In this document: positions 6,254-64,000 of the stretch, in pieces
Layout of the letters: each line of letters starts with the position of its first letter
Position numbering within the stretch: position 1 is the first letter of the stretch
Assembly (NCBI GenBank): GCA_029834535.1
Contig: JAQMWT010000464.1
Location: 1 to 64,000, forward strand
DNA from: Chrysophaeum taylorii
Lineage: Eukaryota; Sar; Pelagophyceae; Pelagomonadales; Pelagomonadaceae
Reading direction: 5' to 3'
DNA length: 64,000 bases
The notes under the pieces: model-generated
What the model was told of the DNA's origin: nothing
What the model saw: only the letters and a program-made list of their open reading frames with translations
Databases searched by the model: none
Made by a program: the position numbers and the translations under genes

Positions 6254-7542
6254 AAGTGCAGGCCAGTAAGTACACCTAGTCCCAATCTCTAACCCCAGTA
6301 AGTTCACCTGGTCCCGTTACGTTCACCTGGTCAGTAAGTTCGCCTAGTTAGGGTCGGATAAGAAAACGAGACTAGCCCGCGCTACAACGACGGGTCCTAC
6401 AACGCGTGGGCTTTTTCCTTTTTTTGCGTGAGGGGACGAAAGGATGCCGACTTCACTATGGGGACTAGTTCCATCGCGACGATCTCGCGGCGTGGCGGCA
6501 CATACTGCTTGAGTACAAATGAACATAGCTCAGCGATCCGTTGAGTATGTCTTAGTACAAACTGAAACATAGTTAACGGCTCGTACGAACTTTCTTATCC
6601 GACCCTGGCCTAGTCCCAATCTCTAACCCCAGTAAGTTCGGCGTAAACCCACTCGCCCCACTCTCCTTTGAGCTCGTCGCTCTCACCCCCGCCAACCCAA
6701 GCTGCTTTGATCCGCACGCGCCGCCAACCCTTGAGTTTACTCTAAAAACCCCAGTAAGTTCACCTGGTCTCAGTAAGTTCACCTGGTCACTCAGCTCACC
6801 TAGTCCCAATCTCTAACCCCAGTAAGTTCACCTGGTCCCAGTAAGTTCACCTACAGTGCGCGTGTATACGCCGTGAGGGGGCTTATCGGTATTGCGCAGC
6901 ACGTGTGGGGTATGGTGGAGTCGTCGACCCAGAAGAGGATATCCTCGGGGTTGCCGATCGACAGAGAGCCACGTAGAGCTGGACGTGGCAGAAGACGGGC
7001 TTCGCCAAGAGGACGCCGACCTCGCGGGGCGTCAGGCCCTGGCTCTTGGTGATCGTTTGGCGTCGGCGGGCCTCAAGGGATACAGGTCGGAGGAGCCTCG
7101 GTGACAACGACACGATCGATCATGTATCTGGTACCGTTGCAGTGGCCGTGCGACGGGTCGAGGTTGCGAAGACTTTAAGCTCGCGATCAAAGTCAGCATG
7201 CCGTTGGTTGTCAGGGAGTCGAAAACTCGACTCTTGAGAGCGAGGCGTCGTCTTCCGACCCAACCTAGTCGGCCGAAAAGAACTCCGACGCCTCGTCTCC
7301 GGGAAAAAAAGGCCGCGGTCATACGCGCGTTGTCAGCATCGACAACATCGTTTCGACGGGGCGTGAGAATGGCGCGCTGAAAGAGCCGCCGCGGGTTGTG
7401 GAAACAGTCTGCGAGGTCGCCGTAGATGGCTTGGAGGATCAATGCCTGCCTGGCTCGCGGGCCTACCTGATCCTTACCCTAAATCAAGGGACCCACAAAC
7501 CCACCCACATCCTTCATGCTCCCCACACTAGGGTCCGAGGAT
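6254..7542 (-). mobile_element. Helitron-like copy A (helicase remnant plus 3' repeats)
   Basis: On the minus strand the right half encodes pieces of a PIF1-type Helitron helicase. AILTPRRNDVVDADNARM and LTTNGMLTL lie at about 7390-7150, and TITKSQGLTPREVGVL with QLYVALCRS at about 7060-6940. These are the motif V (KSQG) and motif VI (YVALSR) regions. The two pieces lie in different frames, and no Rep/HUH domain is present, so the copy is non-autonomous. Toward its 3' end (6254-6850) it has tandem units of the type AACTTACTGGGACCAGGTG and ends with TGGCCTGCACTT. A MITE interrupts the repeats. Its 5' part continues at 12984 after a 5.4-kb insertion. Confidence 0.7.
6349..6607. mobile_element. 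hAT-like MITE, copy 1
   Basis: A 259-bp element with terminal inverted repeats AGGGTCGGATAAGAAA at the left and its complement at the right. The left flank CGCCTAGT and the right flank GCCTAGT form a 7-8 bp target duplication within the Helitron repeat unit (CACCTAGTCCC). The CAGGG-type TIR and duplication length fit the hAT superfamily. It has no credible coding capacity. A second copy in opposite orientation lies at 12726-12983. Confidence 0.7.
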
Positions 7543-7703: not shown

Positions 7704-7716
7704 TGGTAGCAGCTGG
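7704..7716 (+). promoter_or_regulatory. Primer-binding site of the copia element
   Basis: TGGTAGCAGCTGG directly follows the 5' LTR and resembles the usual copia primer site TGGTATCAGAGC, which pairs with the 3' part of initiator methionine tRNA. The position immediately after the LTR supports the call. Confidence 0.75.
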
Positions 7717-7814
7717 TGTCCGTCACGGTCGCACGACCGCTTGACTTCCCGGACAACAGCGACTCCTCCTCGGCTTCAGTTCATTGCTACGTGTTCGGTT
7801 CGTTATCGTTTATC

Positions 7815-8760
7815 ATGTCCTCGATCGAAATTAAGGATAGCAAGCTTTCGCAAAAACTCGATGCTTTCAGTGGTGAGCGACATCTTTTTCACCAATGGAC
7901 CCGGCGCCTGGAAAACATGATCATTTCCACCGGTGATCGCATTATCTTGACCACTGACACTTGGACTAGCATTTCCGCTTCTGGCTGCTCTGAAGAAGAA
8001 TTTGGTCTCAAGCAGCAACGCTGGTACAGTGCACTCTTCATGGCACTACCAATGCATGATACTGATCGTGCGGATATCCGTGAAAACCGCGATATGAACT
8101 TCACGCGGCTTTACAAACGCATTACTGATGTTTACATGGGTCATGGAGATCGTGTCGCTCAGTCTGCAATTGCTTCATTGCATTCCTTGGTGTGCAATAA
8201 CATCGATGAACTTGAGTCCTTTCTTAACAAGTTCATCACTGGTGTTCAAGTTGCTCGGCATCATCAAGATTTCCCTGACTCAACTGCATTGCAGTTGCTT
8301 CAAACGAAAATCCCCGACTCGCTCTTGTCTAAGGATCTCATTGCACTTGATCCTAAATTGCGCACATATGATGGTTTCGTTGATCGCCTCCACAGTAAAG
8401 TTTTTGATTATCTTCAGACCAAGTCTATGCACGTCCATGCTACGTTCCGTGAAAGTCCCCGTCATCGTGAACGTTCCAACTTTTATGGTCGCCATCCTTC
8501 TGAAAAGTATTTTCATTGCTTCAATGCTTTGCGCTCTCAACAACGTTCTAGCCCACGCCCCTCTTTTCGATCATCATTCCGTCACCCACCTTCATCTTCA
8601 CGTGGTTTTCATCGCAAGCGCCAACGCCATACTGATCTTTGTCACTTTTGTGGTATTCCTGGCCATCACCAGAAAGATTGTCATAAGCGTCAGCGCTATT
8701 TGCACTCACAAGCTACCGCCCGCCCACGGCATCAACACCAATACCCACGTCGGTTGCATT
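7815..8760 (+). mobile_element. gag: gag region of the copia element
   Basis: The region encodes a copia-type Gag: an N-terminal helical domain beginning MSSIEIKDSKLSQKLDAFSG, then a basic, Arg/Ser/His-rich stretch, then one CCHC zinc knuckle (CHFCGIPGHHQKDC) that would bind the RNA genome. The upstream Met at 7716 is in frame, but the Met at 7815 fits the family start better. It is treated as part of a fossil element. Confidence 0.85.
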
Positions 8761-9219
8761 CCCAATACCCACCTCGGTCCACTCCCCAATACCCACCTAG
8801 GCCCCATCCACCCTTCTACCAACACCATCTTTTCACCCCCAATCCACCCTTGCCACCATCCGTGGTCTTCCTTCTCCTGCACCCACTCCTTCCGCCCCTC
8901 ATGGTATACATGTCGCGTTTCCGCATACCCTCATCTCTCCTGGCCTTGGTGACAAACGGATTCTTTCGGATCATTCCCTTGAACAAGTTGGTTACGATTG
9001 CCACACCATTCAGGCCGTTGATCCTGCTTATCCGCAACGTATTTTACGTCACCGCCAAACGCATCACGTTATTCCCCTGCTTCGTCGCTGTGGTCTTCTT
9101 TTGATCGTCTGTTGGATCGGCAATACGACCGCTGCGCCCTACACGGACTACGTTTCACCTTTTGTGGCATTTTCTTCTTCCCCTCGTGTCCATGATCCTT
9201 GTGCGTTTCCCGCTGTGTC

Positions 9220-12200
9220 TCAACGCACTCAACTCACTTTCGATCTTTGGCATGCTCGTCTTGGTCATTATAGTCCTGCCTATATTCGGCGTTTGTCTTC
9301 TCTTGCTGTTGGCGCACCGTTTTTCCCGAGCTCCGCGTCGCTTTCTTTTTGTCCTGCTTGTGCTCTCGGTAAAATGCATGCTGCGCATGTTGGCCAACGT
9401 AAAGCTCATGCTTCCACTTCGTCTCCTTCCTCCGAGCCTTTGTCTCGTTCACCACGTGCCGTTGCGGCCTACCTTATTATCCACGCCGATCTCATGTTTG
9501 CTGGCGTCCCATCCTACATATATCACGATCGCGCGATCCTCACGTTTGTCGATGATCATACGCGCCGCCGCACGCGTTACTTTGCTCCACGACACGATGC
9601 CCTTACGAACGCTCGACAACTCGAACTTTTTCTGTCTACCGTGGTTCGCCCATTCGGATATCGCGTTGCCCTCATCTACACCGATCGTGACCGCTCTCTT
9701 ATGGGCCAATTCGAAACCTTCTGTCTGGGCAACAATATTGCGCTTCGGCGCGCTCCGGCAGCACAGTCCAAAACTTCACAGGCTCACGCTTTTTCCGGTG
9801 TTGTGGAACGCTCTCATCGCGCAACCGCGGATATTACTCGCACTCTTTTGGTACATGCGCACCGTCCACCTGATTTTTGGCGTTGGGCCATGGAAACGGC
9901 TGACTTCATCTCTGAGCGTATGCCAAATGCCTCTAATCCTGGATATATGACGCCATATGAAATGCTACATGAAACACTCCCGCGTGTCGATTTTCTTCGT
10001 GTTTGGGGCTGTCCTGCTGCAATTCTCACTGGCGACAAATGGCCTACCAAAGCTATAACCGGTATCTTCATTGGGTATCCCTCTGCAGGCCCTGGATATC
10101 GCATATTGCTTCAACGCCCCACAGGTCCTGTCATCCACACCTCGATTGATGTTGTTTTTGACGAAAATTTCGCTCTGCGTAAGTCACTGTCCACCCAACC
10201 CCTTCCTCCGTCTCTCGTGGATTCTCGTTTTCCTGACTTGTTTTATTACGACCCTCGTCTATCTTCGGCCGTCAACCCAATATCTTCTCTTTTTGATGCT
10301 CCGGAGCCGGCCTTATCGGGACTGATCACCCCACAAACGTCACTGCCTACAATGTTACCGGCCAATACGAAACGTGCACCATTACGTCGTGCCAAACGGG
10401 GCCGACCGCGCAAAGTCGACAAATCAACAAACTTTTTTACGGGCCATGTTTCATCCTGTTACAATGTTGATACGGGCCATTCTCATGTTGATACGGGCCA
10501 TTCTGATGTTGATACGGGCCATTATGTTGATACGGGCCATTATGTTGATACGGGCCATTCTGATGTTGATACGGGCCATTCTGATGTCGATACGGGCCAT
10601 TCTGTTTCCTCTGTCGCTTCTGTTTCCCCCTGTCACTCTTTGTATGTCTCTTCTGTTAGCTTTCGTTTGTTAGTTCATTATGTCTTCCTTCCCCTTTGTT
10701 TAGCTAACACCCTTGTTGATCCTCATGCACACGTTTATTACTCTGCTTCCGAAGAAATGTCCCAGTATTCAGACCTTGACGAAACTACTATCACTTCCAC
10801 CCATTTACGTGAAGCTTTAGCTCCGACCAATCCTGAGCGTCCTGGCTGGTTGCAAGCCATCGCTAAAGAATACAGCTCTCTTGGTCAACTTGGTTGTTGG
10901 GATGTGATTCGCCTCCCTCAGACTTTTTCTGGCAACATTTGTACCCTCAAGTGGATCCTCCGCAAGAAGTATGACTCTGGCCGCTTCAAATCGTACAAGG
11001 CTCGCCTTGTCGTCCGCGGTTACACCCAGGTTCACGGCATTGATTATCATGACACCTACTCACCGGTTGCCAACATCGTCACGATCCGTTTCTTTCTGAC
11101 CTTTGTCGCTGTTCATGACTGGGATTTGCACAAGTTGGATGTTAGCTCCGCTTTTATTCAAGCTCCCATTGACGAAGACATCTATGTCTGGCCACCCGAA
11201 GGCTATGCTCCTCGCCAACCCACCGATGGTTCCAAAATCGTTTACAAGCTCCGTCGCTCTTGGTATGGTTGCAAACAAGCTTGTCGCAATTGGTGGCTTT
11301 ATTTGGAACGCTTCCTTCTCAATGATTGTGGCTTCGTCCGCGGATCTGGTGACACTTGCCATTACAAGCTCGTGCTCAATTCTACCGTGGTCCTCCGTCT
11401 TGTTTTGGTCGTCGATGATCTTCTTGTGGCGCACCCTCCTCATTGCATTGGCCATTACCAAGCCTTTTTCCTCCGTTTCCGCGCTTTCACTGACGTCAAT
11501 GAACTCGATCTCACCTCTTACGTTGGTCTTCGCATTACGCGTGATCGCCCTCGGAGAACCCTCACTCTTGACCAATCCCATGCTATCCGTGAAATCCTTA
11601 CCGAACATCGCTTCATCAACAGTAAACCTGAACTCACTCCCGCTCCCAAAGGTCTTCATCTTTCTGCGGCTGATTGTCCGGCTCCTGGTTCTCCAGATCA
11701 CATCTTCATGGCACGCATCCCTTCGCCGTATTGTTGGCTGTGTCCTCTTCATCTCCATCATGACTCGCCCTGATATCACTTGGTCCGTCAATCAGTGTGC
11801 GCGTTTTTCCCACAATCCTGGTAAACCCCACTGGCACGCTTTATCCCACACTCTGCGTTATCTCAACGGTTCTCAGGATCTTGCCCTTATTCTTGGTCGC
11901 GATTCTACCCTTCATCTCTGTGGTTATTCCGACTCCAGCTGGGCCGACGACCCTGATGACCGCCACTCTACAACTGGGTTTTGTTTTCTTCTTGCGGCTC
12001 TATGATAGCCTACTGCTCCCGCTCGCAATACTTACTTGCTCGTTCTTCTTTCGAAGCTGAATTGCTTGCTCTTTACGCTGCTACTGCTGAGCTCTCTTGG
12101 CTTCTCAAACTTTTTGATGACTTTGATCTCCCTCGTCACACGGTCCCAATGTATGTTGATAATAGCACCACCGTCACCCAAGTTCGTCTCCAATGTCTCA

Positions 12201-13082: not shown

Positions 13083-13086
13083 TTTA

Positions 13087-14125
13087 CAAGTGCAGGCCAG
13101 TAAGTTCACCTAGTCCCAATCTCTAACCCCAGTAAGTTCACCTGGTCCCGTTACGTTCACCTGGTCAGTAAGTTCACCTAGACCAAATCTCTAACCCCAG
13201 TAAGTTCGGCGTAAACCCACTCGTGCTCACACCCACTCACCCCGCTCTCCTTTGAGCTCGTCGCTCTCGCCCCCGCCAATCCAAGCTGCTTTGATCCGCA
13301 CGCGCCGCCAGCCCTTGAGTTTACTCTAAAAACCCCAGTAAGTTCACCTGGTCCCAGTAAGTTCACCTGGCCACTCAGTTCACCTAGTCCCAATGTCTAG
13401 ACCCAGTAAGTCCACCTGGTCCCAGTAAGTTCACCTACAGTGCGCGTGTAGACGCCGGGAGGGGGCTTATCGGTATTGCGCAGCACGTGTGGGGTAGGGT
13501 GGAGTCGTCGACTCAGAAGAGCATATCCTCGGGGTTGCCGATCGACAGAGAGCCACGTAGAGCTGGACGTGACAGAAGACGGGCTTGGGCAAGAGGACGC
13601 CGACCTCGCGGGGCATCTGGCCCTGGCTCTTGTTGATCGTTTGGCGTAGGCGGGCCTTAAGGGATACAGGTTGGAGGAGCCTCGGTGACAACGACACGAT
13701 CGATCATGTATCTGGTATCGTTGCAGTGGCCGTGCGACGGGTCGAGGTTGCGAAGACTTTAAGCTCGCGATCAAAGTCAGCATGCCGTTGGTTGTCAGGG
13801 AGTTGAAAACTCGACTGTAAAGAGCGAGGCGTCGTCTTCCGACCCAACCTAGTCGGCCGAAAAGAACTCCGACGCCTCGTCTTCGGGAAAAAAAGGCCGC
13901 GGTCATGCGCGCGTTGTCAGCATCGACAACATCGTTTCGACGGGGCGTGAGAATGGCGCGCTGAAAGAGCCGCCGCGGGTCGTGGAAACAGTCTGCGAGG
14001 TCGCCGCAGACGGCTTGGAGGATCAATGAATGCCTGGCTCGCGGGCCTACCTGATCCTTACCCTAAATCGAGGGACAGACAAACAGACAGACAAACAGAC
14101 AAACATCTGTCGATTAGTAGTAAGG
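13087..14125 (-). mobile_element. Helitron-like copy B
   Basis: Same plan as copy A without insertions. The 5' end is ACTACTAATCGACAGATGTTTG with a microsatellite (about 14125-14075). Helicase remnants follow: AILTPRRNDVVDADNARM and LTTNGMLTL at about 13980-13760, then INKSQGQMPREVGVL and QLYVALCRS at about 13630-13520. Then come AACTTACTGGGACCAGGTG-type repeats and the 3' end TGGCCTGCACTTG at 13087. The helicase pieces are in two frames, as in the other copies, so the family spread after the open frame was lost. Confidence 0.72.
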
Positions 14126-14476
14126 ACCCTCTTATAAGATTCTTACCGACAGCTGTTGTCAGATTCCAATCAGAGGAAAATGGGTGACATGACACTGTGC
14201 GTTGAAGACAGACGCATTGTACGTTGAAGATAAGGGGTAAGTAAGAGGTGCGTTATTGAGGGTAAGGAAAGAAGACCAGCTTCGATCAGTGAATTAGAGG
14301 GTGAGGAAAGAAGATGAGGGTAAGATCTAAGATCAGGTGTTAATGTTTCAGTGGCTACTCTGACTAAACCTGATAAGGGCCGAGATCCTCGTCACGCCGA
14401 TCAGCTAGCGAAGGTCTTCCCGCGCGCAGGTCCTAAAAACAAAATCATTGTATCGAGGGAAGTTACTTAGGTATAC
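14126..14476. other. Spacer between Helitron copy B and the hAT element
   Basis: Non-coding. It holds several imperfect GAGGGTAAGGAAAGAAG-like purine-rich segments at 14255-14325. No gene or element end is seen apart from the hAT target duplication at 14469-14476. Confidence 0.4.
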
Positions 14477-42211: not shown

Positions 42212-43481
42212 CTGACTACTAATCGACAGATGTTTGTTTGTTTGTTTGTCTGTCTGTCTGTCTTCTTAACTACTAATCGACAGATGTTTGTCTGTCTGTC
42301 TGTTTGTTTGTTTGTTTGTCTGTCTTTATATGTCGACTGCTAAGAGGGGGGGGGGGGTGTGTGGGGAGCATGAAGGATGTGGGTGGGTTTGTGGGGTATG
42401 AGGGATGTGCCTGACGGGCGGAGATAAGTACGCGGGACCTATTCGGGGTCATCGCCGAGGCGTGGGGCAGGCGAAGAGAGGACGGGCCCCGCCCGTAGGT
42501 TGTCTGTCCCTCGATTTAGGGTAAGGATCAGGTAGGCGCGAGAGTAAGGATCAGGTAGGCGCGAGAGCCAGACAGTGATCCTCCAAGCCGTCTACGGCGA
42601 CCTCGCAGACTATTTCCACGACCCGCGGCGGCTCTTTCAGCGCGCCATTCTCACGCCCCGTCGAAACGATGTTGTCGATGCTGACAACGCGCGCATGACC
42701 GCGGCCTTTTTTTCCCGGAGACGAGACGTCGGAGTTCTTTTCGGCTGACTACGCTTCGTCGGAAGACGACGCCTCGCTCTTTATAGTCGAGTTTTCAACT
42801 CCCTGACAACCAACGGCATGCTGACTTTGATCGCGAGGTTAAAGTCTTCGCAACCTCGACCCGTCGCACGGCCACTGCAACGGTACCAGATACATGATCG
42901 ATCGCGTCGTGTCGCCGAGGCTCCTCCAACCTGTATCCCTTAAGGCCCGCCTACGCCAAACGATCAACAAGAGCCAGGGCCAGACGCCCCGCGAGGTCGG
43001 CGTCCTCTTTCCCAAGCCCGTCTTCTGCCACGTCCAGCTCTACGTGGCTCTCTGTCGATCGGCATCCCCGAGGATATACTCATCTGGGTTGACGACTCCA
43101 CCCTACCCCACACGTGCTGCGCAATACTGGTAAGCCCCCTCACGGCGTCTACACGCGCACTGTAGGTGAACTTACTGGGACCAGGTGAACTTACTGGGGT
43201 TGGAGATTGGGACTAGGTGAGCTGAGTGACCAGGTGAAATTGGGACCAGGTGAACATACTGGGGTTTTTAGAGTAAAGGGTTTTAGAGTAAACTCAAAGG
43301 TTGGCGGCGCGTGCGGATCAAAGCAGCTTAGATTGGCGGAGGCGAGAGCGACGAGCTCAAAGGAGTTGGTGTGAGCTAGGTGAACTTACTGACCAGGTGA
43401 ACTTATATGAAACTTACTGGGACCAGGTGAACTTACTGGGGTTAGAGATTGGGACTAGGTGAACTTACTGGCCTGCACTTG
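42212..43481 (+). mobile_element. Helitron-like copy C
   Basis: The 5' part has ACTACTAATCGACAGATG twice with GTTT/GTCT microsatellites, then TCGACTGCTAAGAGG and a G-run (about 42334), then CCCTCGATTTAGGGTAAGG. Helicase remnants lie at about 42580-42860 and 42890-43130 (INKSQGQTPREVGVLF, QLYVALCRS). The 3' part holds GAACTTACTGGGACCAGGT-type repeats and ends TGGCCTGCACTTG at 43481. It ends only 9 bp before the ATG run of the next host gene. The first helicase piece is more mutated than in copies A and D. Confidence 0.72.
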
Positions 43482-43490
43482 TACGCTACA

Positions 43491-50875: not shown

Positions 50876-51887
50876 CTTTGTCTTAACTACTAATCGACAG
50901 ATGTTTGTCTGTCTGTCTGTCTGTCTGTTTGTTTGTTTGTCCCTCGATTTAGGGTAAGGATCAGGTAGGCGTGAGAGTAAGGATCAGGTAGGCGCGAGAG
51001 CCAAACAGTGATCCTCCAAGCCGTCTACGGCGACCTCGCAGACTGTTTCCACGACCCGCGACGGCTCTTTCAGCGCGCCATTCTCACGCCCCGTCGAAAC
51101 GATGTTGTCGATGCTGACAACGCGCGCATGACCGCGGCCTTTTTTTCCCGAAGACGAGGCGTCGGAGTTCTTTTAGGCAGACTAGGTTGGGTCGGAAGCC
51201 GACGCCTCGCTCTTTACAGTCGAGTTTTCGACTCCCTGACAACCAACGGCATGCTGGCTTTGAGCGCGAGCTTAAGGTCTTCGCAATCTCGACCCGTCGC
51301 ACGGCCACTGCAACGGTACTAGATACATGATCGATCGTGTCGTGTCACCGAGGCTCCTCCAACCTGTATCCCTTAAGGCCCGCCGACGCCAAACGATCAC
51401 CAAGAGCCAGGGCCAGACGCCCCGCGAGGTCGGCGTCCTCTCGCCCAAGCCCGTCTTCTGTCACGTCCAGCTCTACGTGGCTCTCTGTCGATCGGCAACC
51501 CCGGGGATATGCTCTTCTGAGTCGACGACTCCACCCTACCCCGCACGTGCTACGCAATACCTATAAGCCCCCTCCCGGCGTCTACACGCGCACTGTAAGT
51601 GAACTTACTGGGACCAGGTGAACTTACTGGAACCAGGTGAACTTGCGGAGGTTAGAGATTGGGACTAGGTGAAATTAGTGACCAGGCGAACTTACTGAGA
51701 CCAAGTGAACGTACTGGGGTTTTTAGAGTAAACTCAAAGGTTAGCGGCGTGTGCGGATCAAAGCAGCTTAGATTGGCGGGGGTGACGGCGACGAGTTCAA
51801 AGGAAAGTGGATGTGAGCACGAGTGGGTTTACGCCGAACTTACTGGGGTTAGAGATTGGGACTAGGTGACTTACTGGCCTCCACTTG
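50876..51887 (+). mobile_element. Helitron-like copy D
   Basis: 5' end ACTACTAATCGACAGATG plus microsatellite, CCCTCGATTTAGGGTAAGG, then the best-preserved helicase remnants of the family. AILTPRRNDVVDADNARM and LTTNGMLALS lie at about 51070-51270, and TITKSQGQTPREVGVLSPKP and QLYVALCRS at about 51390-51500, in two different frames. The 3' repeats end with TGGCCTCCACTTG. It lacks the TCGACTGCTAAGAGG segment found in copies A and C. Confidence 0.72.
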
Positions 51888-52210: not shown

Positions 52211-52804
52211 GTGTCCGGCGTCTCCGTGTGGACGAACCCCTCGTGTTGTGCGCGCACTGTGTTGTCGTTGTTGTAGCTCACCGTTTTTTTGAATCCTCGT
52301 TCCGCCGAGGGTCTCGTACTCGCGCATCGGTGTGCGCGATGTTGTGGGTTGCTCGGCGCATTACGCCGCCCGAGTAACTCTCGACTTGTCGAGCCTTTCG
52401 AGTTTCCGCTCTATTGAGCGTTACTTTCAAGCTGGAGCTTTTGTCGCAATGGGCCGACTCTACAATCTCGACGCGCTGGCGCTTGCTCTGTTGAACGCTT
52501 GAAGGCCTCGTTCGATGAGCACGGTGCGGAGCAGTGGCGCGTCACGGGGTGGTTCCGAGTGGTAGCCTCGGGGCTCGTGGCGAGAGCGAAGCGCTTAAGC
52601 TTGAGCGCCGCGAGCGGCACGGTTGTCGAAATCACATCGTCGGAGAGCGAGAGCACGCCGCGATACGTGGTCAAAATATCGCCGACACTGTCTCGCTCTC
52701 CATCAGAACCACGCAGTTGTCCCGTGTGTTTTGTTGTGGTATTGGTTGTTGTCGTACGTCTTCCTGTTGTTGCGAACAAAGTGTGTTCGAATTACTTCTC
52801 CCGG

Positions 52805-54550
52805 ATGAATTATTCATTCGAGGGAACATCGGAGGATGGCAGAACTGCGCTCACCACCACCGCACGCAGGCCACATCAGTCGGAGGGGTGGACGCGGCGC
52901 GAGGACCTCGACCGGTTCGCCGCCGAGATTATCGAGCTGCACGGGATGTGCTGCGCGCTGGAGGAAAATTTCGATGCGAAGATCGGCGGCGAAGTGCAAC
53001 ACGCCGGGTACGGTGTGCTGGTGCAGAAACCGTCGATCGCGATCGACTACGATTCGGTGCAATCTAAAAATAACGCAGTGATCACTCGGAAAGAGCAGCG
53101 CTCGGTGGCGCGGCACGCGATCGATGCGACGGAATCCAGCAAGGACGTCATCGTCGTGGGCGACCCTGGCATCGGAAAGACGCGCGGTTCAATGTTTTTT
53201 GCCATGCAGGAGCTGCTAGCGCAAAATAAGACCGTGATGCGCGTTGGGTTCAAGGAGTCAAAGATCATCCTCTTCAAACCTGGTGCCCCGGGCAATTACG
53301 AAGTGTGGGTACGCTCTGGCGCGTCCACATGGGACGTTACAGACGCTGCGAGTGACCCCGAGGCCTTCGTGCTCATAGACCCGCCCGAAAAGCGACCCTA
53401 CCCGGATATGGCAGAATGCCGCACGATCAAGTTCGCGTCGAACAACGCTAACGAACATTACCCGAATGCCGACAAGGACAAGATAGTTCTCGTCACGGCG
53501 CCACCTACAAAAGATGAGTTGTGCGCCATGGTACCGACACTCTGGACTGCAAAAACTGCCCCCGGAGAGACGTTCGACACGCTGAAAAGTAAGGAAGACG
53601 AAATCTTGCGGCGGGCGCTGCTGGTGGGCTGCGCGCCGCGGTACGTTTTCAATAAAGCGAAATTTCTTGCACGCGCCCGCATTATCGGCAGACACGCGAA
53701 AGATGCCGTTAAGGGATCGGGCACGCTTGATACTCTCGTCAACAACCTGGCTTTCGATGCGTCCAGTGACGTCCAAGCTTCCTCGTCGGTTTCCGGGAAG
53801 TTCTTCACCATCGCTCCAGCCCATGATTTGCCCGTGCCGACGTGGCAAGACAGGGTGCAGGCCGTCGCGTCAGTTCACGAGCTTGCTCGGCTCGCCCTCC
53901 ACACCCTCGTCGTCAAAAAACTCAAGTGTGCCCAACAGGTTTATCATAGTTCCGAGTTTGGACACATGTTCGAGCGCGACGTGTGCACTTTCGTGCTCTC
54001 GGTGCTGCCGGCCAACTGGAAGCCGGGATCAGCGCTGGACGCTCTCGAACTTCGTCGCACGGTGATAAAATCAGACGAGAGCCCGAAGTCGGGTGCTTGG
54101 TCCCGGTCCATGGACGCACTAAAGAAGTTGAAAGAGGAGTCCAACGTTTTAATGTACATGGTGCCCTTTAATTTCCCGGGCATTGACTTCGCGTACAGCC
54201 CAAAGCTATTGATCAATGCAAAAAGCTCAAAGTCAAATAGGTTTGAACTCGAATCGAGAGCGTTGACGTTTCTCCTCGAAGGTCTCGGTGTGGTGGATAA
54301 ATTCGATGGCAAGTATCGGACTGTTCCCGGAAAGGAGAACTTCAAGGCTACCTTCGTCTTCCTTCACTTGAATGCAGAACCTAAGCCACAATTCAATATT
54401 AAAGGCGGGTATGAGGACCTCATCAATCGACATTTCGATTTCGAATACTGGTGTGTTGTTGACGTGCTCGAATTGGTGACGGCAGAAGTCGGTGTCGTCG
54501 CGGAGAAGTACGGCCTTCACCACTTCTTGCGCAAAGGTCCGTCCGAATGA
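52805..54550 (+). CDS. Crinkler/RHS-like P-loop NTPase protein
   Basis: About 581 residues from MNYSFEGTSED. A Walker A motif VVGDPGIGKTRGS lies at about 118-130, followed by QNKTVMRVGFKESKIILFKP and YEVWV. A Walker B-like FVLIDPPE lies near 190-197. A C-terminal segment has FELESRALTFLLEGLG and WCVVDVLELV. This layout resembles the Crinkler (CRN)/trypanosomatid RHS class, which couples such an NTPase to a nuclease-like C-terminal domain. I do not see clear nuclease residues. The frame is open upstream to 52499, but that part is low complexity and may be intron. Placed between Helitron copy D and a gypsy element, a setting common for this class. Confidence 0.65.
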   Translation: MNYSFEGTSEDGRTALTTTARRPHQSEGWTRREDLDRFAAEIIELHGMCCALEENFDAKIGGEVQHAGYGVLVQKPSIAIDYDSVQSKNNAVITRKEQRSVARHAIDATESSKDVIVVGDPGIGKTRGSMFFAMQELLAQNKTVMRVGFKESKIILFKPGAPGNYEVWVRSGASTWDVTDAASDPEAFVLIDPPEKRPYPDMAECRTIKFASNNANEHYPNADKDKIVLVTAPPTKDELCAMVPTLWTAKTAPGETFDTLKSKEDEILRRALLVGCAPRYVFNKAKFLARARIIGRHAKDAVKGSGTLDTLVNNLAFDASSDVQASSSVSGKFFTIAPAHDLPVPTWQDRVQAVASVHELARLALHTLVVKKLKCAQQVYHSSEFGHMFERDVCTFVLSVLPANWKPGSALDALELRRTVIKSDESPKSGAWSRSMDALKKLKEESNVLMYMVPFNFPGIDFAYSPKLLINAKSSKSNRFELESRALTFLLEGLGVVDKFDGKYRTVPGKENFKATFVFLHLNAEPKPQFNIKGGYEDLINRHFDFEYWCVVDVLELVTAEVGVVAEKYGLHHFLRKGPSE

Positions 54551-55013: not shown

Positions 55014-55314
55014 CAAGTGCAGGCCAGAAAGTTGACGTCCCAGTAAGTTCACCTGGTCCTAGTAAATCCACCTGGTCCTAGTAAGTTTACCTGGTCCCAG
55101 TAAGCTCACCTGGTCCTAGTAAGGGCGGCTACCCGAGGAGGACCTCGGCGCAGACGACAGTGCGCGTGTAGACGCCGGGAGGGGGCTTATCGGTATTGCG
55201 CAGCACGTGTGGGGTAGGGTGGAGTCGTCGACCCAGAAGAGGATATCCTCGGGGTTGCCGACTCGACAAAGAGCTGACACGATTGATCTTGTATCTGGTA
55301 CCGTTGCAGTGGCC
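55014..55314 (-). mobile_element. Helitron-like copy E, truncated
   Basis: 3' end TGGCCTGCACTTG at 55014, then diverged repeats (CTGGTCCTAGTAA type). The stretch GCGTGTAGACGCCGGGAGGGGG continues into the last helicase residues (about 55190-55260), and finally a segment matching the VARPLQRYQI region. About 120 bp present in other copies between the last two pieces are missing, and everything further 5' is gone. Confidence 0.65.
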
Positions 55315-55499
55315 GCTGTGGCGTAAGGAGAATTTTAGGGGCTACCTGGCGTGCCTTCGAATCCTGGCTCGCCGATCGCGTCCGTGCCCTTGGTGGGATC
55401 ACTGGACGAGGATGGCCGTTCTCCCGCCACGCGACCACAAACAACTCCTGCGCCTGGTCCTCTCAACTTGAGGATCGGCTGTTGCTTTATGATCAAGGA

Positions 55500-55652
55500 T
55501 AATCGAAATCAGAAATCAGGGTGACACATGTCACGGAAAAGGAAGATGATGTCATAGAAAACTCTGACATCATCGGAACGGAGTAGGGTGCCCCTGAAAA
55601 GGGGGGGCCCTAGAAGAGGGGTAAGCCTTCGGAGACGGGAGTTGCCGCCACA
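55500..55652 (-). repeat. Probable start of the gypsy 3' LTR
   Basis: On the minus strand, purine-rich AGGGGAGTCC is followed at 55652 by TGTGGCGGCAACTCCCGTC. The same TGTGGCGGCAACTCC start and the downstream landmarks AAGGCTTACCCC and TGATGTCA recur at 4605 and below. The far end of the LTR was not found; Helitron copy E limits it to above 55314. Confidence 0.5.
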
Positions 55653-55692
55653 GGACTCCCCTGGTAAGAATTCGAGCTGCCCCAGCGAGGTG

Positions 55693-58600
55693 CTAGCGCG
55701 AGGAGCGCGGCTTCGCCTTACGAGCATCTCGTGAACGAATCTTCTGGTAAACGCGGGTGATGATCGGTTCAGGAACTCGACCACTGCGTAAAGTAAACTT
55801 GGGGACCAACACGTCAATCTCGTGCGGAGCGAAATCCGTGACACAAGGAGTGGTGTTGGAGGAAATTCGGGACTTGTCGGTGAAACTTCGACCTTCAACG
55901 TCCTTGAATTCGGGCTTGAGCTTGCGGTGCGAAAGGTGAGAGGTCGGCTTGAAATAAGCGACATCATCGTTCGGACCCAAATCGGAATAGAAATGTAGAG
56001 CGATACGATCATTTTGGTAATCGTAAGGCTCGTAAACTTCAGCAACATAAATCTTCTTGCGCCAATCAGAGCGCTTCCGGTCAGGAATCCGGAAAACAAC
56101 AAACTTACCGTGCTGATAATCATCACGGAAGGTTTCTTCGGGTTTGCGGATGGTTTGATCAACGATCGGAGGTACCATCACCGGCGTGATCTGACTTACA
56201 TGAACACGTCGTTCTTCGGGCGGAGAGTCGAGAGACTCAATCCTATAGGTGACCGGGGAGAGGCGTTCCTTGATAATAAACGGCCCTCGCCATTCCGGTC
56301 GAAGTTTGTTCTGAAGGAAAGGGATGTAGAGCAAAACGTGCGATCCTTCCTTGTATTCAACATCAACATGATCAGCATTGTAAGCCAATCGCTGTTTCTT
56401 CAAAGCTTTATCACGAGCCTCGCGGACGATCTTTGTATAATATTTCAATCGTTCGCGAGTCTCGGCGACTGCATCAGAGCGAGTCTTCGGCAATAATCGT
56501 GTATCAAAATCCATGAGCGTGTAGTCAGTCGGTAGCATCGGCTGACGGTTCAGGCGTAGCATAAAGGGAGAAATCTGTGTGCCTGGAATAAACTTGCGGT
56601 TATAGCAAAACGCAATATAATGGGCAAAGTCAGGCCAATCCGTGATGTTCCGACCTTGAAGGCAAGCACGGAGGAAGGCCTTGATAAATCGGTTGACACG
56701 CTCAGCCGGGTTCGACTGGGCATGATAGGGAATCGTAGTTTGGTATCGTGTGTTAAAGAGATGGCAGAACTCGCGCACCAACTTGTTCACGAACTCTTTA
56801 CCGTTGTCGGTACGAATCATCTGGGGCAAGTAGCCCTTGAGAAGGATGTTAATGACAAAAGACTCGAGGACAGACTCAGCAGTCTTATCATTCAAAACAT
56901 CCAGAATCAAGAAATGCGAGAACGGATCAAAAAATACTAGAAGATACGTCTCGGGACCAGCGCTGGGCAAGGGTCCAAATAAATCCATGCAAAGAACAGC
57001 ACCATCACCATCGTAGACGGGCTGCTGCAAGAGTCCAGCTCGTTTCGGCTCAGGCGTACGAGCTTTCTGACAAACTAAGCATTCAGCAATGAAGACTCCA
57101 ACTTCGTTCGACATGTGGGGCCACCAAAATCGTTCTTGGATAGCCTGGACGGTACTGTGACGTCCCATATGACCACCGTTAACCGGAGTGTCATGATAGA
57201 GTCGAATAATGCGTTTGCGCAACGTAGCAGGTGCAACAATCATCGGGTGCAAATCAGCAGAAATGCGGTAAAGAACATCTTTAACGACTTCGAATCGTTC
57301 GTTCGCTCGGGAACGTCGTGGCGTCTGACCTTGGGCCATTCGGTAGCGAATATCCTCGCACGTAGCATCAGATTCTTGCTCACGTGCGATCTCAGCGAGC
57401 GTCATATTATCGGGTATCTTATCGATATAATCTTTGTAAGCGGCTGCGTCCTTGAAGATCTGTGGCTCATCACGCGCACGGTTCTTCCGACGTTGTCTCG
57501 TAGCGTGAGACGTAGCCAATTTCATCGGATCCTTTTCAGGGTCTTCGTCTCCGTCTTCCGGCAGTTCGGTCGTAATAAACGACATTATGAAGTGGCAGCC
57601 AGAGACGGGAACTCCTCGGTCATCAACAGGTCGGGGAAGCTCTTGGAACACTAAATACGCGTGGTTCAAAGGTTCTCCAAACTCGTCAGTCTCGATGACA
57701 TGATCAATCGGGTTGCGGGAGAGACAGTCAGGGATACTCATTCCCGGTGACTTTCCCGGCTTGTAACCAAGTTCAGGGTCAAAATTGGCGAGGCGCATCG
57801 CCCAACGAGCAAGCTGCCCAGACGAGTGCGTCGCCTTACGTAAAAACGTCAAATTTCGGTGATCGGTCTCCAAAACAGTCCGGTGCCCTTCGATGTAGGC
57901 TCGAAAGTGCTCTAGAGAAAGTATAACTGCCAGCAGCTCTAGCCGACGGGGCTCATAATTCCGCATCTCCTTCGGCACGGCTCGGCTCCAGTATTCAATT
58001 ACTCGTTCTTCTCGAGTCACTCTTCCGGCATCGTCCTTGACTTCGACAATCTGGAAGAGATATGCTCCAAGTCCATCCTTGGAAGCATCGGATCGGATCT
58101 GAAAAGGCAGATCATAATCGGCGTGGTAGACTCCACGGGAATCAACCAAAGCTTCAATAATCGTATCCCAAGCTTTCTGACACTCGGGCGTCCACTCGAA
58201 CTTTACACCTTCGAGGCATAATCGTCTTAACGGTTCCACAATCTTCGAGTAGCCCTTCACATATCGCCGGCAGTAATTACTCATGCCGATGAAAGAGCGT
58301 ATCTGGGTCTTCGGGGAAGTATTCGGTAAAGTACCTGGAATCGGCATCTTCTGCAGTGCTTCCAGCGTCTTTGGATTCGGCTTCAAGCCTTCTGGGGTAG
58401 AAATGTGTCCCAGAAATTCTATATCATCTTTGAGAAGGTGGAACTTCGCGGTTCGACCGCTGTACCCTCTCTGTGCCAAATGACACATCACTTCGATCAA
58501 AACTTGTAAATGTCGATGAAGATCGTCGGATCCCATCATAATATCGTCAACAAACGCAACCAAGTCTTGATACATCCATTTCGAAAGGTCGCTCGCCATT

Positions 58601-59310
58601 TGCTTGCAGAAAAGAGCTCCGGCTGTCTTCACACCTAGAGGTAATCGCAAGAAACTGTGAGCGCCAAGTGGGCTAACCATCGTGACAGCGTCCTGCGCTG
58701 CCGGATCCAGACGAAGGTTGTGGTATCCCCATAATATCAATGCATGTCCGCCATCGTCTCATCGCGAGAAAGGCTAAAGCATCATCTTGTCGAATGTTTG
58801 GCCAACTGTCATTGACCAATTGATCGTTGAGCTGACGTAAGTCAACTGCAGCACGGAACGCGTTTGACGTTCCAATCTCAGCTCCTTTCTTCGGAAGCAT
58901 CAACACAGGAAAGCCCCAAGGTGAGTTGGCCGGACGAATGACTCCATCCCGGCACCACTCGCTGATCTGCTTGCGGAGACAATCGAGCTTCGCAGGCGTC
59001 AATCGGTAGGGCGTCATCTTTATCGGTCGCGGATTCGCGTCTTTGAATCGTAGAGACACAGGAGGCGAGTCCACAGGTCTCATAATCGGGTCGAAAAAGG
59101 CCCAAGAATATTGCACACAGTGACGGAGCATCAGTTTCGCCTCGTCATCTAAGTGCGGATTGTCAGGAATTCCCAGCTCCTGCACAACCTTGTCAACTTC
59201 TTCCTTCGTAGGAATTTGAACTTTCATCGCTTCGTTGTCCTTGACATGCTCAGGAGTCTGCGGCAGTGGTGCACCCTCGGCATCGCGCGGCGCATCTTTC
59301 CATGGCACAT
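55693..59310 (-). mobile_element. pol: Gypsy pol region: RT, RNase H, integrase and C-terminal extension
   Basis: Recognised in order: reverse transcriptase (PYRLTPAKLDCLRKQISEW, SPWGFPVLMLPKK, LPLGVKTAGALFCKQM, FVDDIMMGS); RNase H (IRSDASKDGLGAYLFQ, YEPRRLELLAVILSLEHFR, ETDHRNLTFLR); the integrase zinc finger (YHDTPVNGGHMGRHSTV with CLVCQKA); the integrase core (LCMDLFGPLP, MIRTDNGKEF, NPAERVNRFIKAF); and a GPY/F module (PEWRGPFIIKERLSPVTYRI). After it come about 150 more residues (FVVFRIPDRKRSDWRKKIYV, AEVYEPYDYQNDRIALHFY), a possible small barrel of the chromatin-reader kind. It is treated as a fossil. Confidence 0.92.
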
Positions 59311-60000
59311 CGAACTTTTCTCGTATTTTAGTTTCACTTCCGGGTGGCTTTTGTTGATCCTCTCGCCTTTGACACGAACACTCGGCTCGCTCTTAATCTT
59401 CGGTTCCCGATCTCGCTCAGGATCTGGCGGAACGTCTAAATTTGGTTGTCGGGGGGGGGCAGCAGAAGAAGCATGAGACGTCCCCGGCTCATCTGTTGCA
59501 GGCGGAATCAACGGTACCTCTGGAGGTGTCCATTTGGTGCGATCTTGAAGATCATCAGTTGACACCCATCTTATGACACGTGTGCGCGTGTTTAACAGCG
59601 GAACTTGTACGTGACGAAGGGTGGTTTCATCAATTTGTAAATAATAATCAAACGGTCGGTCTGCAGGACTCAACGCTGACGGCAAAGCTTCGCCGCTCAG
59701 GTGAAATTCCTTGGTCACAGAGTTGTGCAGATCGAGCATTAATAAGGCCATCGTGTCAGGTGGCACGACGGACGCCAAGTGTTTCAACGAGGTCGTCCTG
59801 GAGAAGCCGGCCCACTCAAAATCAGGGGGCATCGTCAGCAACTCCGAAGTCATTTCCAGATTCAGAGATCTGTAATCGGAACGGTGCGGTCCTACGCGAA
59901 GCGGGACACGCGTAACAGTATAAGCTGCGTCTGTCGCGGCTCGTGATGATCCTAAATTGTTCATCTGAAGTAAATGTCGTTCGTCGGCGTAGCCAAGTGC
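59310..60000 (-). mobile_element. Gypsy linker region between methyltransferase segment and RT
   Basis: Encodes NLEMTSELLTMPPDFEWAGF, ETTLRHVQVPLLNTRTRVIRW and a Pro/Glu/Lys-rich tract (PPDPERDREPKIKSEPSVRV). This may be the N-terminal part of the Pol protein or the end of the methyltransferase module. No domain recognised. Confidence 0.6.
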
Positions 60001-60680
60001 GGCGGCGAACTTTGCTGCATATTCTTGCAAGTCTTGGAACTGCGCGCAAATGGAGCGGATGGCTGGAAACCAACAATCGCACGCGACAGCTCATCAAACT
60101 GGGAGTTATGTCGTAAAAATTGACGACGTAAACGTAAGGGTGCAAACGTGCAACGTAAGAAATAATCGAAGCCTCCTGCTCTATCAACCACATGAAGAAA
60201 CCAGCCATCTTGCATAATTTCATCGTCCAGTGGGTAGCGGTGACTCCCTTCCCAACATCTCTGGAAGTCAAGTTGCACAGAGCGGAGTGTACGCAGGGTG
60301 GCGACGCGACACACATCGACGACGACCATTCCGCGTAGGGTAAATAAGATTCGATCAACCGTAAGGTTGTAACATAGCGACCACACAATGTGTGCTGCAC
60401 CACAGGAATATTCGGAAAGTTCTTGTGGTGGATCTGGTTGGCGGTGTCCGACGCATCGAGTGCTAGCACGACTCGAAACGACGTCCCACACGTTTCGTTG
60501 GCTCGTTGGAGACCTAAAGTACTGCCTCCGGCTCCACTGAACAGCATCACCACCTTGCGATAAGTGATTGGAAGCCATTGAACCTTTTCATATCGGCGGC
60601 GGATCTCCGCTTCGGTGATCTCGCGGCATTTCTTTTCATCTTTTCCGACCTTCGAGCGAAATCGTCGCGGCCTCAAGGTC
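60000..60680 (-). mobile_element. Cytosine-C5 DNA methyltransferase segment inside the gypsy element
   Basis: Motif I, VVMLFSGAGGSTLGLQRAN (about 60511-60560), is the AdoMet-binding FxGxG signature of C5 methyltransferases. It is followed by RVVLALDASDTANQIHHKNF, which fits motif II (acidic residue binding the AdoMet ribose, then the A...YK.NFP helix). Motif IV, CVASPPCVHSAL (about 60280-60315), carries the Pro-Cys catalytic dipeptide. Spacing of about 80 residues between I and IV is normal. Later motifs (VI, VIII-X and a target-recognition domain) are not confidently seen. The segment looks broken. Host gene origin is unlikely because it is enclosed by retroelement ORFs on the same strand. 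Confidence 0.85.
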
Positions 60681-60734
60681 GTTTGAGGGTGGACTTGCCC
60701 TTCTTAGCGGTCGTAGCTTCCTCCGCAACCGTGC

Positions 60735-63700
60735 TCAGCAGCATCGGCGGGGAGATTCGTCGCATCGCGTCAAGTGACTAGCGACAGAAACGGTGAAAGA
60801 AAGGTTCCCCTTGTCGTATCCTTCTTCACATTCTTTCGTAAGTTCGTTGATCGTAGAGACGTTCAACTCATCTTCGTACCTAACGATATCACCAATCGCA
60901 AGGGCTTCGCCTTGAGTGACGATCGTCGGCACTTCTTCCGTGGCAGTAACCGCCACCCGAGCAGCGGACCGGTCGCGCTCTTCGCAAGAAGAACACATTC
61001 CTTCGACAACTCCCAACTGCTCGTTCTCAGCAAACGTAGCGACGAAAACCTGTCCTTTTTCCATAGGCTTCGACAAAATAACCGGTAGATTGTACGTTCG
61101 ACCGGGCTCGATTTGAATCGTGCGCGCGGCATAAGCGATTACTTCTCGCGCGTCTTCTCCCGGAGCTGGGGAGAATTTGGTCGTAGCATGTCCCCGCGTA
61201 GCCAAGGCTACCTTACGTTCCGGCGGCGGGCTTCGGAGATCTTTAATCGTGCTCAAACGAGCATAAACTCGAGTCTTGACCAGGTCGAGACTCTGCCGAA
61301 AGGCATCGTGTTGATGATTGTAAATCGGTACGGTTATCGGATTTCGATCATACATAGACCGAAAGGTCACGATTGGTGCATCGACTCGTTCATCCTTAAC
61401 TTTAATCTTCTTGCGCCCGTAGACGACTTGGGTTCGACAAAAACAGATCCGATCATGGGGAAAATCCACGATGGCTCCTAAAACTCGTATATCGCGCCCT
61501 CCCAACAGGAACAAGTAATTCGTATCGGCTACAATAGCGACAATGGGGGCAGCGAAGTCGTCGGCGAAAGCGACCCGAAGGGCGATCCAACGATGGATCG
61601 TCGTCGTATTCAATCCTGATCCGTACAGCTTGCGCTTAATCGGAAGTTCGCCTTCATCGAAAATCAACTGATCTTTGGTCAACTTTTTGACCATTTCTCG
61701 GCAAATATAAGAAACATCTGCCATTCCATCGACACCAATGGTCGTCGAGAATTTCGGTCCGTCACGATTCCTGTAGATGTGACAGGCTATAAACGTTAGA
61801 GAACCCGTATCTAAACAACTGAGGGTAATCAAATCATCTTCGATCGTCTTGCCATCTCGCGGCGTCAACGAAGTGTGAGCACATCGGGCTCTGAATCGCT
61901 CATCTCCGGGGTTGGGCATCGATACCGCGGCTTGAGCTTTCGTATTATCTGTTGTTGGCGTCTTCGCCATAATGCTCGCGGCAGCCTCTTTATCTGGCGG
62001 CTTCCGCTCTTCCTCCAAGACAATCTCAGAGGGAATCAGTGCTGGTAGGGGATCCTGGTCTTCGTAGTTCACGGAAGCAAAGGACCCCTCCCATAAATCA
62101 TTCATTTCGTCTTTCCAGAATGCATCTGTAAATTCATTCGTCGCCTGCTGATCCTCATCAGCATCGGCGATCGGTTCCGTGTCAGCTGCGGCTTTGAGTC
62201 TGCAGCTGCGCGGTTGTTCTGGTGGCTTCTTCAGCAAGAAATTCCGAGCTTTCGTCCACCAATCCTGCAGGTTCCACGTCTGCTCGTCTTCGTCACACTT
62301 GAGAACGCTGCTAATCTTCTTCATAAATCTATCCTTTTCTTCCGGCGGCGTATCCGTGTCTCGATCCGTAGTAATCGAAACCGTTTCGGGGGGGTCCGCA
62401 GGAAAAGATGGCGTCGTCCCCGACGTCAACTCTGTCGTAAAATCGTCGTCTGCAATACTCGCGCTGGTCATCGTCTCTTCAGTCGAATGCGCGCACGAGC
62501 TATCACTGCAGAAATTCATGTCTGGCTCACAGCCAGTTCGGTCGCCAGCGGTCGTCTCTGGAGGGTCCAAAGATAAGCCGATGGCATCGAGGGCTTCCTC
62601 ATCAAAAATAAACGGTGGGTCGTCCAGGGACGACTCGTCAAATAACGTTAACGCAGACACTGGTTCACAAAGTGTAGCTTCTTCATCTTCCGAATCTGAA
62701 TCGCATTCCCAGTATCGTGGAGCTTCGAGTTCCTCGCTCGAATATTCGAGCTCATTGCTCGACATCTGCTCATAAATCTGTGCCAAAGACCGACGAGTGG
62801 TCAGCACGTCGTTGGGTGGCTCGTCCATCGGTGGGCGAGCGAGATCTTCGAATGCGGCCGCGGCAAGGGCGTCGGCTGCGTCGTCGGTGCGGGTGTCCGT
62901 GTTCGGGTACACCGTCACTCCTAATGGTAAGTGTTGACCGCAAGGGGTCGTAAATGTGAGCGTTGCGCTCGAAAAACTCGAATTATATTGGTGTCGGCCT
63001 CCGTCGTATTCGTCGTCGCGCGATCGGCGTCTTCTGTGCCGGCGCGAACTTCGACTGGGGCTCTTGTTATCTTTGTCTCTCTCTGGCGTCAGTTCGGCAG
63101 GTCTTAGTACCTCTGGATCGTCCCTGTAGGCGACTGGTGCTCCCAAGTCTATCCGAACTGGCTCAATCGTCTCGTCTATCCAAACATCGACGCCTTCGTC
63201 GTCTTTTTGCCAAACCTCCGACCAAACGTAAATTAAATCTCGGTTGGCCAATAACTCCGTGCCTCGGGGTCGGAATTGTACTTCTTTCCGCTCTGGCGGT
63301 TTCTTCTTCAGGAAACATTGAGCTCGTATCCTTATCGTCGGTACGCTCATCTTCCTATTATCCATGCTGATCGTCCCATCCAAATTCGGTTCCGGGCGGC
63401 AGCTATACTCATCCCTCATAGTATGTTCGGGATCTTTCTTTATCACGTAGCCATCATCATATGCAGGCTGAAAATCTTTGAACTCTTCGTTCGTGAGTAA
63501 TACGCCAGGGCTTTCACTGAGCTCCAAAGGCAGTTCATGCGTTATAAGATTCTTCATCTCTTCCGCTTTCGTATTCATTTTCTCGGCCGTTTCACTCGGC
63601 CTCTTATCCACTCCATCGCTTCGAATATCGGCAATCGCCTCGTCACTAAAAATGTCGGCACACGAATTGTCTGCCATCGTCAAAGGGAATAAAACATCTG

Positions 63701-64000
63701 CAAAAACGTCTGCAGTCGGTTCGTCGGGGGGGGCTGCAAAAGAAGAAGGCGTCGTCCCCGACGTCATATCTGTCAAAAACTGGCCACCAAAGGGCACGTG
63801 ACGTTCGATGGGTGTGTACTCAGATGCGCGCTTATCATTCGAGGTAATCCTCTGCGACGCATCGTCGATCGATCGTGGAGGCGACGTGCCATCCACTTGA
63901 ATGTTCGGAGGTAAACTCATAGCATCGAGCGTAGCAGCAGCGGGTCCTTTACTTTGGGCGTCATCGGCTGCACGGGGCTCGTAAATCGGATTCACACATA
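60735..64000 (-). mobile_element. Gypsy ORF1: long acidic protein with retropepsin-like domain
   Basis: An open frame of more than 1,085 codons, running past the window edge. The N-terminal two thirds are acidic and low complexity, with repeated TELTSGTTPSF/TDMTSGTTPSSF and KKPPE(Q/R) phrases. A candidate aspartic protease has LDTGSLTFIACHIYRNRDG near 61810, a GVDGMADVSYICREMV segment, and VAIVADTNYLFLLGGRDI downstream (hydrophobic-GGRD like the family's second psi loop). No CCHC zinc knuckle is visible in the part inside the window, so the capsid part may lie further upstream. It is treated as part of a fossil element. Confidence 0.8.

Follow-up and report, generated by a model that had tools for sequence, protein, structure and literature searches.

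A large, young family of Ty3/gypsy retrotransposons in the alga Chrysophaeum taylorii carries a methyltransferase-type domain as a standing part of its single Gag-Pol polyprotein. The family was recognised from one copy in the stretch of DNA analysed here, the window, which is 64,000 nucleotides long and forms positions 1 to 64,000 of contig C464 (JAQMWT010000464.1, assembly GCA_029834535.1). The identification of the element and its domain as a Ty3/gypsy retrotransposon with a C5-type methyltransferase domain is made with high confidence. What the domain does is a matter of more graded likelihood.

The window element is a copy of a Ty3/gypsy LTR retrotransposon on the minus strand. It occupies 55317..64000 of the window and extends past contig 64000; the full element is C464:55317-65895 and measures 10,579 bp (10.58 kb). 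In the window extended by 5 kb along its contig (L062), direct repeats at 55316-55653 and 65559-65896 are 99.7% identical, with one difference in 338 aligned bases. The bounds 55317-65895 were set with the TG...CA ends, which places the 3' LTR at 55317..55652 on the minus strand and the 5' LTR at contig 65560-65895, beyond the window. GCCGC stands on each flank as a 5-bp target-site duplication (55312..55316 and contig 65896-65900). LTRs about 98-100% identical to the window LTR are found elsewhere in the assembly, among the best 40 of 481 candidates scored. Adjoining the 5' LTR is a primer-binding site (contig 65536-65557), a 22-nt stretch perfectly complementary to a host tRNA's 3' end with its CCA. 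The tRNA gene, located by pattern search, is a tRNA by Rfam and a tRNA-Ala(AGC) by ARAGORN. A tRNA-Asp primer, which would have tied in Dnmt2, is thereby ruled out. Tandem units of 19 bp (CCAGTAAGTTCACCTGGT-like) lie at window 55037-55131, some 200 bp from the LTR on its outer side. Next to the LTR of a copy on contig C5 (L061, about 1266-1609) there is also repeat sequence common with the window. The repeats near the LTRs of these two copies possibly reflect an insertion preference.

The coding part of the element is read from several minus-strand ORFs. By Pfam, ORF 55693..58758 encodes the C-terminal part of the reverse transcriptase (RT), RNase H and the integrase (H2C2, rve and p58_C). The N-terminal part of RT is in ORF 58673..59392, frame-shifted relative to the former; alone it gave no Pfam match, and it is assigned by the continuous C5 homologue, which has RVT_1 at 1606-1770. 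The Gag/protease ORF spans 60735..64000 and continues to contig 64643, with a retropepsin-like stretch at about 61440-61765. This protease-like region was read by eye, there being no Pfam match for retropepsin in the ORF or in the C5 copy. The order RT, RNase H, integrase with the rve core is present by Pfam in both the window copy and L061. The 5' coding part of the window element contains a tandem duplication of about 300 bp (305 bp, 99.3%; 64090-64394 / 64386-64690) that is missing from the C5 copy. Elsewhere in the window, copies of a dispersed repeat, about 1 kb at most, lie at 6609-7500, 13085-14127, 42500-43483 and 50880-51887, with a further copy at contig 67600-68203; they are 86-97% alike and in both orientations. 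A 710-aa ORF at 52418-54550 has a P-loop-like GDPGIGKT by eye and no Pfam match.

The methyltransferase-like domain lies on the minus strand, where the initial annotation had put it, with RT, RNase H and integrase on one side and the retropepsin-like region, as read by eye, on the other. Its N-terminal part (60023..60600) is defined by motifs I-IV, Pfam and profile comparison. Its C-terminal part (59740..60020) is in the frame of ORF 59224-60090, and the two are continuous in intact copies. The three motifs that had been claimed on one strand are all found at the claimed places in a single minus-strand ORF, 59822-60703: motif I, FSGAGG, at 60524-60541; ALDASD at 60446-60463; and motif IV, SPPC, at 60293-60304. 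Candidates picked by eye are LIEQE for motif VI (60173-60187) and MSCRVR for motif VIII (60077-60094). The extent first proposed, 60000..60680, takes in only part of the domain, which goes on in another frame as far as about 59750. This copy of the element is broken, its methylase domain and its RT each being split between frames. Against PF00145 its domain ORF reaches 20.3 bits over profile positions 2-52, narrowly missing the cut-off of 22. This score is marginal, so other copies were needed.

An uninterrupted copy is found on contig C5 (L061, L063), where a single ORF of 3063 aa spans everything, the methyltransferase domain included. In L061, which covers 2672 aa of this ORF, VMLFSGAGG is at 1054 and SPPC at 1136. 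The RT follows at 1606-1770; RNase H occupies 1865-1977, and the core of the integrase 2237-2330. The whole 2672-aa ORF scores 18.6 bits against PF00145, below the cut-off of 22. The LTRs of the C5 copy are 98.2% identical, and no matching 5-bp target duplication was found in its flanks.

The domain is present at no fewer than 182 distinct places on 151 contigs of the assembly. This number is a lower bound, includes broken copies, and is pooled from two whole-assembly searches, one with the window domain (best 134 of 1071 candidates scored) and one with the domain of a second subfamily (best 121 of 1046). In the latter search 79 of the 121 scored matches are full-length (residues 1-331) and stop-free, a share that is biased upwards because only the best of the 1046 candidates were scored. 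A survey of the copies had been set beforehand as a refutation test, looking for copies without the segment. Scoring the best 45 of 1760 candidates in a pol search left 44 testable copies, one being at a contig end, and 38 of these 44 keep the domain in place. The claim that a Ty3/gypsy family carries a domain of this type is upheld by this result. In 24 of the pol copies a domain match is seen by eye at the expected distance; in the other 20, 600 bases were examined each, and the domain is on the right strand in 14, several of them interrupted, and missing in six. Two of the six (L081, L085) have the protease region at the domain's place and probably arose by internal deletion. Element sequence is absent at that place from L092 and L096; L099 has only LTR there, and L094 only the tail of an opposite-strand neighbour. 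A chance match or a one-copy insertion is ruled out by the other copies.

Substitution patterns indicate that the domain is under purifying selection. Between the C5 and C235 (L080) copies the domain is 81% identical, with dS 2.07, dN 0.121 and dN/dS 0.058; the same comparison gives dN/dS of 0.020 for RT and 0.034 for RNase H. The corresponding pN/pS values are 0.159 for the domain, 0.134 for the integrase, 0.237 for the protease region and 0.375 for the interval between protease and domain. Eleven domain pairs were compared in all. The four between the two subfamilies have dN/dS of 0.053-0.069 or lower (lowest 0.049), values that are approximate because synonymous sites are near saturation between subfamilies. 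The one pair inside the second subfamily gives 0.082, and the six inside the first give 0.165-0.389, which fits many recent copies in decay.

What kind of domain this is was addressed with intact copies. In 45 loci examined, the domain lies in one stop-free match in 23, and 12 of these 23 were aligned (alignment A1). In a Pfam scan up to E 1, PF00145 was the sole family matched by each of the 12, at 2.7e-6 in the best case. The profile search proposed in the initial annotation thus succeeds with an intact copy (L057, 25.5 bits, above the cut-off of 22) and falls short with the window copy. TIGR00675 (dcm) is matched by 11 of the 12, L057 reaching 18.4 bits, far under the cut-off of 100.65. FSGAGG and PPC are invariant in all 12 copies, over both subfamilies. 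When A1 was compared by hhalign with a Dnmt2 profile, built from four solved chains and the host Dnmt2, the result was E 3.6e-8, probability 95, over 76 columns at 34% identity, with FSGAGG and SPPC aligned. Ten column shuffles gave E of at least 0.03 and seven unrelated proteins at least 0.12; against these controls, the match is beyond chance. The bacterial-type profile (HhaI plus phage KP15 methylase) gave E 0.0032. Likewise, blastp of the gypsy domain against eight chosen methylases gave Dnmt2 at 1.5e-7 (31.8% identity over the 1g55 stretch) and HhaI at 0.05.

Searches of the whole PDB are less decisive. With single copies of both subfamilies, Dnmt2 comes first (E 0.036 and 0.041) and is the sole methylase, at E 0.036-1.2, none of these values being significant. 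With the profile, a fragment of GGA1, a non-methylase, comes first (E 0.14), followed by Dnmt2 (0.15) and the methylase 3g7u (2.2). No Dnmt3 appeared up to E 10 in the whole-PDB searches with the gypsy domain. The half of the domain after PPC, compared with Dnmt2, gave E 0.066, no better than 12 shuffles (best 0.01). In A1 the LIEQE glutamate stands 38 residues past the PPC cysteine and could be that of motif VI, ENV not being canonical here; a global alignment points to another register. As judged from sequence, the domain is a divergent C5-methyltransferase type with motifs I and IV intact, and its nearest relative in that half is Dnmt2. Firm support is confined to motifs I-IV, and we file the domain under neither Dnmt2 nor Dnmt3.

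No relatives of the gypsy domain outside this genome were found in a set of 5.8 billion proteins, where candidates were similar-length proteins sharing 5-residue words, or among viral contigs, prokaryote genomes and phages, collections that may hold few protist genomes. Independent acquisition, as first proposed, is consistent with these results, the nearest solved relatives being Dnmt2 and not Dnmt3 and nothing similar occurring elsewhere in the collections searched; the relationship is read from about 76 alignable columns and eight outside or host methylases.

Searched with PF00145, the assembly yielded 57 matches (best 123 of 474 candidates scored), of which 30 were examined as loci. Only two of the 30 are methylase genes outside elements. 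L001 (1498-2577) is the host Dnmt2 (1g55, 3.9e-39) and L002 (1006-3537) is a Dnmt5-like host gene (7r76, 3e-143). An origin of the gypsy domain from the host Dnmt5 gene was rejected, no similarity being found (hhalign E 0.21). The other 28 loci (L003-L030) carry one methylase that is different from the gypsy domain.

This second methylase belongs to a Ty1/copia element. In L064 (3097-8952, contig C96) a 1952-aa ORF has the methylase directly after a protease-like stretch (PF00145, 32.1 bits), then an integrase match of 17.2 bits, below cut-off, and RVT_2 at 1.6e-38. Its sequence includes PCQHLS, ENVPPN and, much later, ANAVPHHM, the last picked out by eye; these three probably represent motifs IV, VI and X, and its motif I is weak. 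The profile of the copia methylase matches HhaI plus KP15 at 3.8e-7, Dnmt2 at 8.1e-5 and a pooled set at 6.2e-9 over 148 columns, eight shuffles giving E of at least 0.17. Its dN/dS is 0.106-0.269 (28 pairs from eight sequences), and no relatives outside the genome were found in the protein set or the PDB. A common origin with the gypsy methylase was rejected, the two showing no similarity (hhalign E 0.1). By these comparisons the Ty1/copia family has a methylase independent of the gypsy one. The window itself contains a Ty1/copia element at 7710-11773 (RVT_2, 3.3e-36), neither of whose two ORFs matches PF00145; methylase-free copia elements therefore coexist with methylase-bearing ones.

Retrotransposon-encoded DNMTs are already known from a few other algae, and the gypsy case here is another form. 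PMC5890265 describes DNMTs carried by DIRS and LINE elements in Symbiodinium and by a gypsy element in Klebsormidium. When tested in yeast, the DIRS enzymes produced de novo CG methylation; for the Klebsormidium gypsy DNMT none was seen, a result that its authors call inconclusive. The Klebsormidium nitens element, KnitGypsy-Dnmt3, resembles the present one in having a gypsy-type Pol polyprotein with a C5 methyltransferase, in being intronless and in many copies, and in the purifying selection reported for it. However, its DNMT is Dnmt3-related, whereas here the nearest solved relatives, at E-values without database-wide significance, are Dnmt2 and motif VI is non-canonical. Moreover, its repeats have a DIRS-like arrangement, in contrast to the plain direct LTRs and target duplication seen here. 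SymbioDIRS-Dnmt3 and SymbioLINE-Dnmt of Symbiodinium are likewise C5-methyltransferase retrotransposons with more than one independent capture per genome, but the carriers are DIRS and LINE elements there and gypsy and copia LTR elements here (PMC5890265). Dnmt2 itself, the tRNA-Asp C38 methyltransferase (1g55, 9hgm, 4h0n), has motifs I-IV in common with the gypsy domain but no significant similarity in the half after motif IV, and the gypsy domain, unlike Dnmt2, sits inside a polyprotein.

Dam-type (N6A/N4C) methylases of DIRS and other transposons are also transposon-borne but form an unrelated class, the domain here matching the C5 family (PMC5890265, PMC6338049, PMC12477816). PMC12344493 places DNMT3 in 'LTR Copia and DIRS' elements, citing PMC5890265, whose text says Gypsy. 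PMC6338049 reports that gypsy and DIRS elements with Dam or Dcm exist in several groups, stramenopiles among them, with the enzyme classes not separated. PMC9998398 and PMC3145265 describe Dnmt5 in stramenopiles, and PMC12477816 an N4C/N6A methylase in a brown-algal Sola transposon. Among open-licence papers, in titles and the beginnings of abstracts, no C5-methylase element like this appeared outside dinoflagellates and charophytes.

As an explanation of the whole, we lean slightly towards a gypsy family whose C5-type domain methylates the element's own nucleic acid. The mechanism of self-methylation, taken by itself and drawn from sequence features, is a real possibility that falls somewhat short of an even chance. 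The domain would be made within Gag-Pol and either freed or taken into the particle alongside the other Pol enzymes. It would then methylate the element's nucleic acid, most likely the new double-stranded cDNA, and new copies would integrate already marked. A host Dnmt5-type enzyme could then keep the mark, relatives of Dnmt5 being maintenance enzymes. The likely benefit is that new copies would be masked or self-limited. CpG depletion was not seen in the gypsy bodies, where observed/expected ratios are 1.28, 1.31 and 1.19 in three copies and 1.26 and 1.33 in host sequence; these bodies thus bear no mutational trace of self-methylation. The ratio is 0.85 in the 338-bp LTR and 1.02 in a copia copy.

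Two other roles of the domain appear unlikely. It might be an RNA methyltransferase of Dnmt2 descent that acts on element RNA or on packaged or host tRNA and aids translation, stability or priming. The affinity to Dnmt2 in blastp and hhalign, and its top rank among solved chains for both subfamilies, would agree with this; but the whole-PDB values are all non-significant, the direct profile comparisons covered Dnmt2, the bacterial type, the host Dnmt5 domain and the copia methylase, and the half after motif IV has no Dnmt2 match. The primer, too, is tRNA-Ala, whereas the classical Dnmt2 substrate is tRNA-Asp. About equally improbable is a domain that has kept its fold and lost catalysis, and that binds nucleic acid or AdoMet, or plays a structural part, within the polyprotein. 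A non-canonical motif VI and a C-terminal half that the profile does not recognise are what a dead enzyme might show; such an enzyme need not, however, preserve FSGAGG and PPC unchanged in all 12 copies over two subfamilies. That a host methylase gene landed by chance in one or a few copies, to which the frame-shift within the window domain might point, is next to impossible against 182 places, two subfamilies with near-saturated synonymous sites that have the domain at the same place, and host Dnmt2 and Dnmt5 genes that differ from it.

Self-methylation may be part of a wider system, which we put forward with considerable doubt. The gypsy elements (Dnmt2-like) and the copia elements (bacterial-like) would each have captured a C5 methyltransferase, placed after the protease and held by purifying selection; the elements would initiate methylation, acting as the de novo system of this genome, and the host Dnmt5-type enzyme would maintain it. 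The host set seen, a Dnmt5-like enzyme and Dnmt2, suggests this division of roles, further host methylases being possible. To our knowledge, the gypsy enzyme would be the first Dnmt2-derived methylase in a mobile element.

Cytosine methylation is usually directed against retrotransposons; where an element brings the enzyme itself, the roles are inverted, and few cases are known. The parallel placement after the protease in the gypsy and copia elements suggests that selection favours an enzyme released with Pol. With a compact genome of 70.8 Mb, young near-identical copies, two unrelated captures and a host methylase set that is reduced as far as seen, C. taylorii would allow a direct test of whether elements start methylation and the host maintains it.
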